Of a stretch of 64,000 nucleotides of DNA, positions 32,255 through 39,379 are shown piece by piece; position 1 is the stretch's first letter, and the number at the start of each line of letters is the position of its first letter. Both the position numbers and the translations under genes were made by a program. The stretch covers positions 186,001 to 250,000 of the forward strand of contig JAJFJQ010000057.1 in the NCBI GenBank assembly GCA_021773835.1. Direction: 5' to 3'. This stretch comes from Gammaproteobacteria bacterium (GTDB lineage: Bacteria; Pseudomonadota; Gammaproteobacteria; Ga0077536). The notes under the pieces are model-generated. The model saw only the letters and a program-made list of their open reading frames with translations. It was not told the DNA's origin and searched no databases.

Positions 32255-32853
32255 TCTCCACCTACGATTGAGTCATCGTCTAATTTTGATTCTGCCTTTG
32301 CGTAAGCCGCCTGCGCTGCAGCCTCGTCGCCAGCTGCACGTTCGATGTCGGCGATCAGAAACCAATTAGCAGCTGCAACACGCGCTGTCGCACTCGGCAA
32401 CGCATTCGATCGCAGCGCAATACTTTTCGCTTGACCATGATCGTCTTGAACGAAATGGAGCTGCGCAAGCTTATGCCAGGCCCAGGCATCGCCCGGATTG
32501 ATGCGCAATACTCGCTCGATCCCCGCAGTTGCCGCATCGTAATCGCGTCGTTCAATGTCCCCATCGATCGCCGCAAGCAATTGTTGAGTCGCAGCATTTT
32601 TCGGATCGACGTCTGCAGGAATGTGAATTTTCTTCGCGCGGGGAGGCTTTTGTTCCAAGACGCCAACGGCGGCTGAATCGGACTCGGGAACGTCGTTGAT
32701 ATCGCGCCCATCAACTTTGCCGCTCGTAGCTCGGTCGACTATCGGCGCCGGCGGTGATGTTGCGCAGCCAACTATAGTCAAACCAAATATGACGGCAACG
32801 GAAAAACGAGACGCCGATGTTCTCAACGAAACATCTCTCGAACCTTGTCCCAC
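32251..32853 (-). CDS. TPR-containing lipoprotein of unknown function
   Basis: The 200-residue protein has a signal peptide with lipobox IVGC (Cys30), a proline-rich linker and two or three TPR-like helical repeats (residues about 90-195). The segment RVLRINPGDAWAWHKLAQLHF is a clear TPR, here in parts RVLRINPGD and AWHKLAQLHF. The likely start is GTG at 32853, which overlaps the 3' end of mrcB by 31 bases; TTG at 32826 is an alternative. The operon position suggests a role linked to the cell wall. The stop overlaps that of the FlhB-like gene on the opposite strand. Confidence 0.7.
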   Translation of the reverse strand: MGQGSRDVSLRTSASRFSVAVIFGLTIVGCATSPPAPIVDRATSGKVDGRDINDVPESDSAAVGVLEQKPPRAKKIHIPADVDPKNAATQQLLAAIDGDIERRDYDAATAGIERVLRINPGDAWAWHKLAQLHFVQDDHGQAKSIALRSNALPSATARVAAANWFLIADIERAAGDEAAAQAAYAKAESKLDDDSIVGGD

Positions 32854-35141
32854 AATTTTGGCTCGTCCATCTTAATCTCGTCACAGCCTACATGGATCAG
32901 CAATCCATGCGGCAGGGCCAGTGGAATCTGAGTCGCATTACCGCATCCGGCGGGGACAATCGCGTCGCCGGTGGGCGTCACCCAATCCACCTGAAGCTGT
33001 TCAGGACGAGCAAATTGCATAGGTGTGATCCCGATCCGTTGCATTAGTGCAATCCAAATCTTTAGTGCACCGCTTGCGCCTGTCAAGCCTGTTTTACCGT
33101 TGTCATCGCGTCCAACCCATACCACCGACAGTAGATTTCCGCCAAATCCAGCGAACCAACTATCGCGCCCATCGTTACTGGTGCCGGTTTTTCCCGCCAG
33201 CGGTAGCTGCTGAGGCAGCGCCAGCGCGGCGGCCTTTGCCGTTCCTTCGGCAATGACGCCGGTAAGTAAATATTGCAGCAGATAGGCAGGGGCTGCATCG
33301 ATAACCTGCTCAACCCGAGGCCCATAGCGGGTCAAGGTGACGTTTTGCGAATCAGCAACCGCCCGGATCGCGCGTAGCGGAATTCTATATCCATCGTTGG
33401 CAAGCGCCTGATACAGGCTTGCAACCTCCGCTGGACTTAGTTCAATCGCACCAAGTAGTAACGACGGAAAATCTTTTACTTCACGATTTAGTCCTAAATC
33501 TTGCAAACGCCGGATCACCGTACCCACCCCAACTCTTAGGCCAAGGTCAACCGTCGCTAAGTTATATGAGCGGACCAAGGCCTCGCGGAGGGAAACCTTT
33601 CCATGAAATTTGCCGTTGTAATTACTTGGAGACCAAATCGCACCATCTGCACCGGTTAAACTCACCGGCTTGTCATCGAGAGTCGATAATACGTTAAACC
33701 GCTTGGTTTGCTCCAAGGCTGCTAAGTAGACGAACGGTTTTACCAGTGACCCGATTGAACGCTGAGCGTTGAGCGCACGATTGAATCCAGCATTTGAAGT
33801 CTCGCGACCACCGACCAATGCTTTGATCTCCGCCGTTCGAGGATCTATCACAATCGCTGCACTCTGCAAGGATCTGAGATCGATACCGCGGCTATTCTCG
33901 ATCGCTGTCAGCCCGCTACTAGTCATAGATTGGGCGGCGTGTTGGGTATTGAGATCTAAGCTTGTGAATATATTGAGCCCGGCTTGCTGCAAATCAGAAT
34001 CTCGATAGTCACGCTTTAATTGGCTGCGCACAAAATCGATGAACGCGTCATAGCTTTGTGTGTGAAGCGAAGATCGATCACGCACAAACACTGCGCTGGC
34101 GGTTTCGAGCGAATATTCGTCGCTACTGATCAGCCCACGTTTGTGCAGCAAATCCAATACGAGGTCGCGCCGCGCTTTCGCCGCGTCTCGATGTCGAAGT
34201 GGGTTGTATGCGCTAGGTGCCTTTACCATTCCAATCAACATTGCCGACTCTGCAAGGCTGAGTTCTGCTAGTGGCTTTCCGAAATAGAATCGTGCTCCTA
34301 AGCCAAAACCATGAATCGCTCGATTGCCATCTTGACCTAAAAATATTTCATTTACGTAGGATTCGATAATCAAATCTTTACCGTATTGCCGTTCCAGCGA
34401 AATAGCCATGAGCGCTTCGCGAAACTTCCTACCAAACGTTCGCTTATTCGATAGATACATATTTTTGACTAATTGCTGCGTAATCGTGCTCGCGCCTTGC
34501 TCGATTTTGCCTGACTTTAAATTGCTAAATGCGGCTCTCGCGATCCCGACGGGGTCCACACCAAAATGCTGGTGGAACCTACGGTCCTCCACGGCAAGTA
34601 GGATCTGTATAAATCGATCGGGGATTTCCGCGAACGACAACATAACCCGATCTTCGAATTCATCGCGGTGGATACTGCCGATTTCAACGGGCTCTAAACG
34701 CGCCAAAGAAAGCGGCTCTCCGGACTTGCTGTCAATCAGCCTGGCCACGACGCCATTCGAAATGCGGATATCGATGTTTCGCGCCGGTTCGGTACCATCT
34801 GGGAACCGGTACCCCCGAGAATATATTTCGAGGCCTCCTCGATTGCGAACGAATGTACCCGGCGTAACGACTGTTGTGCCACTGCCATACCCAAGTTGTA
34901 GCAATGTGGATTCCAAATAATCCGGATCGAGTCGCACCCCTTGGTACAGTTCTATGGGACTCGCAAATAAGCGCGCCGGAACGGCCCATCGACGCATTGC
35001 AAATGATTGGCCAACTGTATGGTCTAGCCACATCCAATACGCGGCGAAGGCCAAGCACAGCCACAAAGCACCATGACGGAACAGAAATTTAAACCACGCA
35101 ACGTGCTCATTTTGAACTCGCTTTTTTTTCTTACGCGGCAT
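32823..35141 (-). CDS. mrcB: Penicillin-binding protein 1B (bifunctional glycosyltransferase/transpeptidase)
   Basis: PBP1B polymerises and crosslinks peptidoglycan. The 772-residue protein has a basic cytoplasmic tail (MPRKKKKR), one transmembrane helix (about 25-42) and a UB2H-like domain. The GT51 domain has AVEDRRFHQHFGVDP (catalytic Glu) and GASTITQQLVKN. The transpeptidase domain has SIGSLVKPF (SxxK), SYN and KTGTS. The C-terminus is a short variable domain with two Cys. All catalytic motifs are intact. The GT partner LpoB is not evident, but the downstream TPR lipoprotein is a candidate partner. Confidence 0.96.
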   Translation of the reverse strand: MPRKKKKRVQNEHVAWFKFLFRHGALWLCLAFAAYWMWLDHTVGQSFAMRRWAVPARLFASPIELYQGVRLDPDYLESTLLQLGYGSGTTVVTPGTFVRNRGGLEIYSRGYRFPDGTEPARNIDIRISNGVVARLIDSKSGEPLSLARLEPVEIGSIHRDEFEDRVMLSFAEIPDRFIQILLAVEDRRFHQHFGVDPVGIARAAFSNLKSGKIEQGASTITQQLVKNMYLSNKRTFGRKFREALMAISLERQYGKDLIIESYVNEIFLGQDGNRAIHGFGLGARFYFGKPLAELSLAESAMLIGMVKAPSAYNPLRHRDAAKARRDLVLDLLHKRGLISSDEYSLETASAVFVRDRSSLHTQSYDAFIDFVRSQLKRDYRDSDLQQAGLNIFTSLDLNTQHAAQSMTSSGLTAIENSRGIDLRSLQSAAIVIDPRTAEIKALVGGRETSNAGFNRALNAQRSIGSLVKPFVYLAALEQTKRFNVLSTLDDKPVSLTGADGAIWSPSNYNGKFHGKVSLREALVRSYNLATVDLGLRVGVGTVIRRLQDLGLNREVKDFPSLLLGAIELSPAEVASLYQALANDGYRIPLRAIRAVADSQNVTLTRYGPRVEQVIDAAPAYLLQYLLTGVIAEGTAKAAALALPQQLPLAGKTGTSNDGRDSWFAGFGGNLLSVVWVGRDDNGKTGLTGASGALKIWIALMQRIGITPMQFARPEQLQVDWVTPTGDAIVPAGCGNATQIPLALPHGLLIHVGCDEIKMDEPKLWDKVREMFR

Positions 35142-35407: not shown

Positions 35408-35440
35408 AATAAAAAGGCCTCGCCCTAATGGGCGAGGCCT
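35408..35440 (-). terminator. Strong terminator of the histone-like gene
   Basis: A perfect 11-bp stem (AGGCCTCGCCC with GGGCGAGGCCT) and a 4-base loop is followed, reading leftward, by TTTTATTT. It lies 286 bases beyond the zero-frame stop of the lysine-rich gene but only 74 beyond the stop of the -1 frame extension. This supports a longer gene product. Confidence 0.9.
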
Positions 35441-35514
35441 GAATGGTTCGACATTGGCTGGGGACCGACGGTCGGAAGGGCTTTACGCCAAATCGTTTCC
35501 ACCTTGTCGCCACT

Positions 35515-35730
35515 CTAGCTACTATGCTTGCGATCGTAATCGCGCTCCCATCTTTTCGCAAACGCGGCAATCGCACGTTGCATCGCATCGCGTTTACGAT
35601 GCTCCGCTCGTCGTTGTCGCGCCGCCTCCTTGCGTGCAGCTATTTTTGCCCTTGCCTCTGCGACTTCGCGCTGCAACCGTGCTTTCTTCTCGCGTTCGGC
35701 TGCTTGCGCTTGAGCCGCATCAGATATTAC
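35515..35730 (-). CDS. -1 frame extension of the lysine-rich protein (71 codons)
   Basis: This frame begins at GTA directly after the A8-G run that ends the lysine-rich ORF and is open for 71 codons to TAG at 35517-35515. It encodes an alanine/arginine/glutamate-rich, probably helical tail (VISDAAQAQAAEREKKAR at the start, RWERDYDRKHSS at the end). It has no start codon near its beginning and no ribosome binding site of its own. The zero frame is interrupted at A AAA AAG TAA, a dnaX-type slippery site, and slipping back one base enters this frame. Product by recoding is inference; an indel is the alternative. Confidence 0.55.
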   Translation of the reverse strand, partial: VISDAAQAQAAEREKKARLQREVAEARAKIAARKEAARQRRAEHRKRDAMQRAIAAFAKRWERDYDRKHSS

Positions 35731-36113
35731 TTTTTTTTGGCGGCCTTTCTTCTCGCCGGCCGTTTTTTGCTTGCCTTTTTTTTGGCAGGCTTTCTCTTGG
35801 CCACTTTTTTCTTCGCGGCTTTCCGTTTGGCCTTTTTCTTGGTCGCTTTCTTCTTGGTAGCTTTCCGCTTAGCTACCTTTTTCTTGGCGGCTTTCTTTTT
35901 AGTCGCCTTCCGCTTGGTTGCCTTCCGCTTGGTTGCCTTCCTCTTCGTTGCTTTCTTCTTGGTAGCCTTACGTTTCGCTACCTTTTTCTTGGCGGCTTTC
36001 TTCTTAGTCGCCTTTCTCTTGGTTGCCTTCTTCTTGACTACTCTCTTTTTAGCAGTCGATTTCTTTCGGCTTGCGGATTTCTTTTTCGCAGCCTTCTTTT
36101 TCGCTTTCGCCAT
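35727..36113 (-). CDS. Lysine-rich histone H1-like DNA-binding protein
   Basis: The 128-residue protein is almost entirely Lys, Ala, Arg and Thr in repeats such as KRKATK and KKAAKKKVAK, and so extremely basic. Such proteins (AlgP, BpH1 and other eukaryotic H1-tail-like proteins in bacteria) bind DNA nonspecifically and condense or regulate chromatin. The DNA contains imperfect tandem repeats of about 15 bases. Only Val, Ser and Pro break the pattern. The C-terminal codons are AAA AAA AAG TAA, see the extension at 35515-35730. The N-terminus MAKAKKKAAKKKSA follows a 260-base AT-rich upstream region. Confidence 0.85.
   Translation of the reverse strand: MAKAKKKAAKKKSASRKKSTAKKRVVKKKATKRKATKKKAAKKKVAKRKATKKKATKRKATKRKATKRKATKKKAAKKKVAKRKATKKKATKKKAKRKAAKKKVAKRKPAKKKASKKRPARRKAAKKK
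35800..36010 (-). repeat. Tandem coding repeats in the lysine-rich gene
   Basis: Units of about 15 bases encoding K-R/K-K-A-T recur with small changes, most regularly near 35905-35950 where the + strand repeats TTGGTTGCCTTCC. Such arrays expand and contract by slippage, so the length may vary between strains. Confidence 0.8.
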
Positions 36114-36376: not shown

Positions 36377-37042
<666 letters not shown>

Positions 37043-37514: not shown

Positions 37515-38576
37515 CTACATCTCGGCGAATAGCGCGTCGATTGAAAACCCTTCCCGCTCCAAAATTTGCCGTAGCCTGCGTAACGCCTCGATTTGGATCT
37601 GGCGAACTCTTTCGCGGGTAACCCCAATCTCCTCGCCGACCTGCTCCAACGTAGATATCTCGCGCCCATACAACCCGAATCGTCTCTCTACGACGGCTCG
37701 TTGCTTGTCATTCAACTGTCCCAGCCAAGTATCGATATGCCGTTGGACGTCGTCATCCTGCAATATTAGCGACGGATCCGGATTTTGCTCATCTGGAATA
37801 GTATCGAGCAGCGAACGATCGGAATCACGTTCAGCCGGAACGTCGACGGAGGCAATACGCTCGTTAAGTCCAAGCATCCGCTGCACATCTTCTATCGGCC
37901 GATCCAGCATTTCGGCAACATCTTCGGGGCTCGGCTCGCGGTCGAGCTTCTGCGCCAACTTACGCGCTGCCCGCAAATATATATTAATTTCCTTAACCAC
38001 ATGAATTGGCAATCGAATCGTACGCGTTTGGTTCATCAGCGCACGCTCAATGGTTTGACGGATCCACCAGGTTGCATAGGTTGAAAAACGGAAACCGCGC
38101 TCCGGATCGAACTTTTCAACGGCCCGCATGAGACCAAGGTTGCCTTCTTCAATCAGGTCTAATAGCGCTAAACCCCGATTCATGTAACGACGAGCGATTT
38201 TGACGACCAAACGCAGGTTCGACACGATCATTCGCTTACGCGCCGCCTCGTCACCTTTTAACGAAAGTCGAGCGAAATGAACTTCCTCTTCGGCGGACAA
38301 TAGAGACGAGTATCCTATTTCGCTCAAATACATTCTCGTTGCATCGAGCTCGCCGACGGAAAATTCACTCGCCTTGGACGTTTTAGGTTTGGACTCATCG
38401 GAGCTTACTGAGGCGGCTCCGTCGATTTCCGAAATCGTATCGGACACCTCGCTTGCGGCGTCAAGGTCGCTTGGATCAAGCTCGTCGTCTGGTGGCAGCT
38501 CTTCACCCCCGATCGGAGTGACCTCCGATTTCCCGGTGGTTTTTTTACGTTTCGGTTTTTTACCTGATGGAGCCAT
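37515..38576 (-). CDS. rpoS: RNA polymerase sigma factor RpoS
   Basis: RpoS directs stationary-phase and general stress transcription. The 353-residue protein has an acidic extension of about 75 residues and then [11 protein letters not shown] (region 1.2). Region 2 has [32 protein letters not shown] in parts [18 protein letters not shown] and [11 protein letters not shown]. Region 3 and region 4 with the helix-turn-helix [19 protein letters not shown] follow. It is downstream of nlpD, the order in which nlpD carries the main rpoS promoter in other species. Confidence 0.95.
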
Positions 38577-38584
38577 GCAATGCC

Positions 38585-39379
38585 TTAGCGCCGAGGAAGA
38601 TATTTAAGCGGTTCGACGGCTTTACCGTCGCGTCGGATCTCGAAATGCAACATGACGCGTTTCGCGTCGGAATCGCCCATCATTGCAATTTGTTGGCCCG
38701 ATTTCACAGTGGTACCTTCGGTTACCAGCAATTGATCGTTGTGCGCGTATGCGCTTAGAAAATCCTCATTGTGCTTGACGATAATAAGCGCTCCGTATCC
38801 CCGTAGTCCACTGCCGCTATAAACTACCGAGCCACCGGCTGCCGCCTTTACTGGCTTTCCGCGCTGCCCAAAAATTTCAATCCCCTTGGTACCCAATGCA
38901 GAGGTGGCCGGTTTGACCGTTCCGTCCGCGGGCCAGGACCATTTGATTGGCCGCGACGTTAACTTCACGGCTGGCGAAGGTTTTATTAGCTTAGGCTTTG
39001 TCGGCGGAGTGCGGGGATTCGTTCTCGCCGTCGGTGGCCTCGGCTGCGCCCGCGGGGCGTGCAGTCTTAAGCCTTGTCCAACCCTGATCAGGTTAGGGTT
39101 CGACAGTCGATTCCACGTCGCAAGCTTCCGAAAATCAACGCCAAATCGCCATGCAATTGAATACAAGGTATCGCCGGATCGCACCTTATACGTTGCTGGG
39201 CGGGAATCCGTTGGCCGCTTTTGTGGGTCCCCCGCGCGTTGCAGCGTGACTGAGCGTTGCTTGGCACTTGATTTGTTGGTGATAGGTGCAACCGCGTTAT
39301 TCACACATCCGCATAGTGCCATGACGGATACTGTTATGATCACACCGAAGAGCTTTGTGGAAATGACACGTTCCAGCAC
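38585..39379 (-). CDS. nlpD: NlpD-like lipoprotein with LysM and M23 domains
   Basis: NlpD activates septal amidases. The 264-residue lipoprotein has lipobox LCGC (Cys25) and one LysM domain ([19 protein letters not shown], about 64-107). A proline-rich linker and a C-terminal LytM/M23 domain follow. The LytM domain keeps little of the catalytic His/Asp set ([24 protein letters not shown]), consistent with a non-enzymatic activator. It lies 8 bases before rpoS and 15 after pcm. Confidence 0.93.

Follow-up and report, generated by a model that had tools for sequence, protein, structure and literature searches.

Frameshifting by -1 in insertion sequences of the IS1 and IS3 families and in phages yields fusion products. 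To our knowledge, proven cases among bacterial chromosomal genes are few once mobile elements and phages are set aside. Clusters of insertion-sequence and prophage genes with A-rich slip motifs have been catalogued, and the same source, in its available portion, proposes 56 non-mobile candidate clusters, most of them without reduced synonymous variation (PMC4066793). The E. coli dnaX gene is a chromosomal cellular gene in which A AAA AAG lies on lysine codons and two products are made (PMC5009743, PMC3711429, as far as the accessible sections go). There the frameshift leads to the shorter product (PMC3711429), a Shine-Dalgarno sequence and a hairpin act as stimulators (PMC5009743, PMC3711429), and the host has a sole tRNA-Lys (PMC5009743). 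When accompanied by stimulators, A AAA AAG is reported in the accessible text of PMC4066793 to be among the most slip-prone motifs in E. coli, and iterated AAA codons pause E. coli ribosomes and allow them to slide (PMC4363877, available part). In Thermus dnaX, by the available text of PMC5009743, transcriptional slippage occurs at a run of nine A.

Here we analyze a gene in the window, that is, the whole stretch of 64,000 nucleotides of gammaproteobacterial DNA under study, which carries A AAA AAG on lysine codons in a chromosomal cellular gene and, as in E. coli dnaX, would give rise to two products. In contrast to dnaX, the shift here would lead to the longer product, the zero-frame stop follows the site directly, neither a Shine-Dalgarno sequence nor a hairpin is evident family-wide, and the genome has tRNA-Lys(CUU) besides tRNA-Lys(UUU). 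The gene shares slippage on an A-rich motif with the IS1/IS3-family and phage cases, but it lies between adk and a penicillin-binding protein 1B gene, is not seen in a mobile element or phage, has an adjacent stop, and encodes a histone-like product. Two A9 genes of another family (f12, below) resemble the Thermus arrangement; the window site is A8, and among the 12 extension genes the run is A6 in half. The low-complexity basic tail, rich in lysine and alanine, is like those of bacterial histone H1-like proteins (NF038053; AlgP and Hc2 as they appear in a search listing).

Comparison with relatives strongly indicates that the gene belongs to programmed -1 ribosomal frameshifting; it would represent a known mode of recoding, dnaX- or IS-like, in a new gene. 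We found no report of frameshifting in such a gene in the literature covered, which had the supplementary candidate tables of PMC3711429 and PMC4066793 outside its scope. The word “histone” does not occur in the main text of the survey PMC3711429, nor in the available text of PMC10885494, and its single mention in the available text of PMC5009743 concerns acetylation.

The lysine-rich gene and its -1 frame

On reading the sequence, the zero-frame ORF (35727..36113, minus strand, stop codon included) encodes a lysine-rich, histone H1-like protein of 128 aa, with 63 lysines and 13 arginines. Against the NCBIfam histone H1-like model NF038053 it scores 13.9 bits (cut-off 80), and no Pfam family matched the lysine-rich part. 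Its upstream neighbour, with conserved synteny, is the adenylate kinase gene adk (36377..37024, minus strand; NF001379, 337.9 bits against a cut-off of 268), and its downstream neighbour is the penicillin-binding protein 1B gene (32823..35141, minus strand; TIGR02071, 787.7 bits against 717.75). Further upstream than adk, and on its strand, 37515-39379 holds rpoS, which scores over cut-off, and a gene resembling nlpD, which stays below it; given these genes nearby, the neighbourhood of the histone-like gene may be of a stationary-phase type.

The gene ends, on the minus strand, with the codons GCC AAA AAA AAG TAA. The slippery heptamer A AAA AAG (35730..35736, minus strand) sits inside an A8 run (35738-35731) with G at 35730, and the stop TAA (35727..35729, minus strand) abuts it. 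The -1 extension (35515..35730, minus strand) comprises 71 sense codons and a stop; it is conserved, is predicted to form a single helix, and ends in KRWERDYDRKH. An intrinsic terminator lies 3' of it (35415..35440, minus strand; stem 35440-35415, then TTTTATTT), 74 bases past the extension stop. A preliminary description of this DNA had reported the zero-frame end, the A8-G run at 35738-35730, the -1 frame with its stop at 35517-35515, and the terminator, and on re-reading all four were located where it had placed them. Relatives also have T-tailed stems 3' of the extension, as judged by eye.

The -1 frame of the window gene is already open 46 codons upstream of the slip site, and this same open stretch contains a second in-frame A AAA AAG (35775..35781, minus strand; codons 112-113). 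An open frame of 71 codons has a chance probability of about 0.06 in this composition, so that its length alone is unremarkable; the frame rises above chance because it is conserved in relatives.

The extension in relatives and its distribution

We searched the 71-residue extension against 58 whole genomes, its own included, and obtained matches in nine genomes of four genera: the window genome, two of its three congeners, and six genomes from three other genera of the family. The third congener (G003) is unreadable at this place. Identity to the window extension is 44-85% in the eight other genomes, and 22 alignment columns are invariant. In all nine, the lysine-rich frame extends as far as A AAA AAG, with the extension in the -1 register. 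The stop is adjacent in eight of them (TAA in seven, TAG in G009) and comes six codons later in G002, and the A run has a length of eight in five genomes and six in four. In these nearest extension-bearing relatives the slip site and the open -1 frame are both preserved, which answers the alignment of orthologous loci proposed in the preliminary description. Among the 590 stretches listed, a scan of the contigs of named genomes gave at least four loci (L012-L015) with the lysine-rich frame and extension in the same -1 register; their proteins are identical to those of G022, G016, G008, and G017 and are not counted twice. L012 is a public MAG record titled Klebsiella pneumoniae that bears this family's locus, and its organism label looks wrong.

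The pN/pS values of the extension are 0.16, 0.20, and 0.22 in three congener pairs and 0.05 and 0.24 in two pairs from other genera. Summed over these five close pairs, differences at the three -1-frame codon positions number 40/19/97, where the three congener pairs share sequences, so that the events are not independent. By these comparisons, the extension is under strong purifying selection as coding sequence. A fifth genus of the family (g5) contributes G015, in which AGA AAA AAG TAG is followed by a diverged -1 extension of 39 codons; this extension scores 11.1 bits against the extension profile, while 500 shuffles reach at most 9.3.

Outside the family, the extension profile alone found 12 genomes in a class sample of 369 genomes drawn, and a wider profile found 28. 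In 24 of these 28 a single open frame joins the domain to basic sequence, which is mostly lysine-rich; the four in which the domain is not in frame are the window genome, G154, G046, and G198. G154, from another family, has GCA AAA AAG TAG followed by a 58-codon -1 extension that the family profile scores at 32 bits. The KWEREYD end is absent from this extension and from that of G015. G174, from a further family (L249), has ACG AAA AAA AAG TAA and a 43-codon basic -1 extension of weak homology (3.7 bits; shuffles reach 4.9). G046 and G198, members of one genus of family f12, both have the domain in +1 behind an A9 run (L020/L035, L023/L036), and their domains show 8, 10, and 23 differences by codon position; these f12 genes are a candidate for transcriptional slippage.

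All told, the -1 extension occurs in 12 genomes, with the heptamer in 12 of 12 and an adjacent stop in 11. The run is A8 in six and A6 in the other six (G002, G009, G010, G017, G015, and G154), and none of the 12 -1 genes has as many as nine A or T in a row where the shift would occur, a length seen only in the f12 pair. The preliminary description had counted relatives with the extension in frame and no slippery site against frameshifting. Such relatives do exist in distant families, though not among the nearest ones; in-frame occurrence at that distance marks a real protein domain and is not evidence against recoding here.

Genes without the extension provide natural controls. We located adk in 29 of the 36 genomes of the family, and 27 of those loci were read where the lysine-rich frame ends: the extension is complete in six and diverged in one (G015), three loci are cut by contig ends, and 17 have a lysine-rich gene without recognisable extension. 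None of these 17 genes ends in A AAA AAG, a typical end being AAG AAG AAG TAA. The terminal heptamer is thus present in 7/7 genes with extension versus 0/17 without (P 3e-6, nominal since the rows are related). The same holds within genes. Across the KK dipeptides of the nine extension genes that have adk on the contig (the six full-extension loci, G015, G154, and G174), the heptamer occurs at the terminal position in 9/9 versus 4/243 internally (Fisher 7e-14, again nominal for related rows), with one of the four internal heptamers sitting in the window gene.

Open -1 frames also arise by chance behind extension-less genes, reaching 70 codons in L042 and 65 in L041. A profile search of 36 genomes of the order found the domain in nine, and in none of the chance-open extension-less genes such as these two. 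The terminal heptamer is also missing from eight adk-linked lysine-rich genes beyond the family, of which three carry the domain in frame. In the class sample, adk gave a good match in 186 of the 369 genomes, and downstream DNA was read in 93 of them, made up of two sets of 27 and 60 loci and of six loci covered before these (G000, G011, G012, G018, G046, and G198). It was this reading that brought in G174; L165 and L231 offer less than 300 bases of downstream DNA. This survey took genes that begin with ATG or GTG and in which K+R make up more than one third of the residues, a filter by which less basic genes would be missed.

Among the genes read, slip site and extension are present or absent jointly. 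The comparative evidence is clean in this respect, with sister genera that have neither serving as natural negative controls. In the adk tree the genera that bear the extension fall into more than one clade, a pattern that suggests joint loss of site and extension on more than one occasion, in a tree whose supports are low and too weak to count gains or losses. One gene of a sister genus without the extension, L060 (G013), has an A10 run near its 5' end and many A6-A7 runs.

Probable frameshifting and the rival readings

We regard it as quite probable, from these sequence comparisons, that the chromosomal adk-linked gene makes two products, of 128 and 199 residues, by a programmed -1 shift of frame on A AAA AAG. 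The two products of 128 and about 199 residues put forward in the preliminary description are what the comparison with relatives fits best. Under the mechanism that we infer, the majority of ribosomes would terminate at TAA and release the 128-residue, almost purely basic protein, and a fraction would slip one base back, with lysine tRNAs re-pairing on the A run. The polybasic nascent chain and the adjacent stop may slow the ribosome during the slip. Slipped ribosomes would read 71 further codons and complete a 199-residue protein with a helical C-terminal module. The E. coli slippage data cited above support this mechanism by analogy and do not themselves show a ribosomal slip here.

The position of the frame change is narrowly bounded. 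In G008 the open -1 stretch starts only 6 codons ahead of the site, in G009 11 and in G001 12, which pins the shift close to the A run. In nine genes, the upstream part of the open -1 stretch contains no ATG, GTG, or TTG (the stretch of G002 being cut by a contig end). With an opening this late and no usable start, the frame has to change close to the A run.

Such a change could also be made by RNA polymerase, which would add one A (or drop two) on the A8 run, so that ordinary translation gives the long protein. Nine A would indeed bring the extension into frame, six of the 12 extension genes have A8, and the f12 +1 case has A9 in both genomes, a high-slippage length according to the available text of PMC5009743. 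However, the other six have only A6 and yet keep the terminal A AAA AAG, and it is the phase of the heptamer with the frame end that is conserved, not the length of the run. Ribosomal slippage is favoured because the terminal heptamer is conserved while half of the genes have A6. Of the three explanations in the preliminary description, ribosomal -1 frameshifting is therefore the best fit; its transcript slippage on A8 strikes us as rather unlikely as the general explanation, and may contribute where the run is A8. Its third explanation, a one-base deletion, real or a sequencing error, is taken here together with a pseudogene; in its favour, the run is a homopolymer and the assembly a draft in 74 contigs. 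Against this stand the same frames in nine genomes of four genera, a diverged form in a fifth genus, two more families with the arrangement, six A6 sites among the 12, and purifying selection on the extension; an error or pseudogene is refuted for the family by recurrence and selection, and we hold it to be highly improbable for the window.

The frames abut, and a TTG or GTG stands at extension codon 19 in three congeners, as might suit translation of the extension from its own start, by re-initiation after termination or as a separate downstream gene. But in all nine genes the open -1 stretch is free of start codons upstream of the site, and in G017, G010, and G008 the sole ATG, GTG, or TTG comes at codon 45-47, too late to yield most of the conserved part. 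The domain, moreover, belongs to a longer basic protein in the 24 of 28 class genomes noted above. Re-initiation is rejected on start codons, and we give a separate start in any form very little credence. Finally, lysine-rich genes abound in AAA and AAG, so the heptamer might be terminal by chance of codon use, with the -1 frame kept on some other account, for example as a regulatory RNA; weak Rfam matches do overlap the terminator. The terminal bias of 9/9 versus 4/243 speaks against chance, differences pile up at third positions of -1-frame codons as is not expected of non-coding RNA, and the Rfam matches, four in number, are all below the gathering score. We consider this reading extremely improbable.

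Candidate stimulators, lysine tRNAs, and predicted products

In place of the stem CGGCT/AGCCG, described earlier as beginning 12 bases downstream of the heptamer, the best predicted stem is another pairing that starts at the 11th base. This candidate stimulatory stem-loop (35659..35719, minus strand; spacer 10 nt after the heptamer) is strong only in the window genome (G000) and its congener G001, where it is predicted as a 17-pair hairpin with 70-nt z-scores of -3.6 and -6.4. The congener G002 breaks three of its pairs and has a z-score of +0.8; in the remaining six genes the 70-nt values fall between -0.2 and -1.7, with G022 at -2.0 over 50 nt. Covariation in the hairpin is not above shuffles, 239 of 500 of which reach it. 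With a strong stem in two of nine genes, both congeners, and covariation at shuffle level, RNA structure as a family-wide stimulator is not supported beyond these two. The weak Shine-Dalgarno-like AAAGG of the preliminary description is present (35744..35748, minus strand), but it is not specific to extension genes; AAGG occurs at the same place, by eye, in extension-less genes, for example L041 and L042.

Both lysine tRNAs, tRNA-Lys(UUU) and tRNA-Lys(CUU), were identified among 43 tRNA hits in the window genome. A missing tRNA-Lys(CUU) as the cause of slipperiness is false. All 14 family loci put to the test, chosen from 30 fetched, proved to carry the CUU gene, in a set that leaves the loci of G002, G015, and G017 outside. 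This tRNA should lower slippage on AAG, and it is the chief result against easy slippage. Such motifs have been found in IS elements of 46 of the 83 species that have both tRNAs, according to the available part of PMC4066793.

The short product has a calculated charge of about +75, and the long product of 199 aa has a calculated mass of 22.7 kDa. A helix is predicted over extension residues 2-69, with a mean pLDDT of 91.5 and a pTM of 0.51, as for a lone helix. Its amphipathic moment is not above that of shuffles (fractions 0.56 and 0.21), and because of this we make no claim of a coiled coil. No Pfam or NCBIfam family was over cut-off for the extension and its four in-frame relatives (three of the four for NCBIfam); the sub-threshold matches to Dynamitin, Mis12, phage scaffold, UBR4, and CorA (Pfam) and to NF033741 (NCBIfam) were discarded. 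Judged by composition, the basic tail should bind nucleic acid, and the helical module is likely an interaction or oligomerisation part, since in-frame relatives bear the same module. Making both forms from a single gene could tune DNA bridging versus coating.

The comparison suggests a nucleoid-type protein made as two isoforms, and annotation of the zero frame only would overlook a conserved domain. More tentatively, selection in the adk-linked family might act on the ratio of bare basic to helix-tipped protein, with the recoding device exchanged over time: a ribosomal slip on A AAA AAG in three families, A9 in a fourth, in-frame fusion in others, and joint loss in some genera. The polylysine chain itself would possibly be the stimulator, in which case charged tRNA-Lys or the stalling of ribosomes could influence output. 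These loci are also a natural setting in which to test what a lysine-rich nascent chain, a stop right after the site, and a second tRNA-Lys do to slippage on A AAA AAG.

The window genome contains a second lysine-rich gene (L002:1360-2205, on G000:C63), which has a GTG start and encodes 281 aa. In its product, an N-terminal tail rich in K, A, and P is fused to a C-terminal part that resembles DksA by eye.
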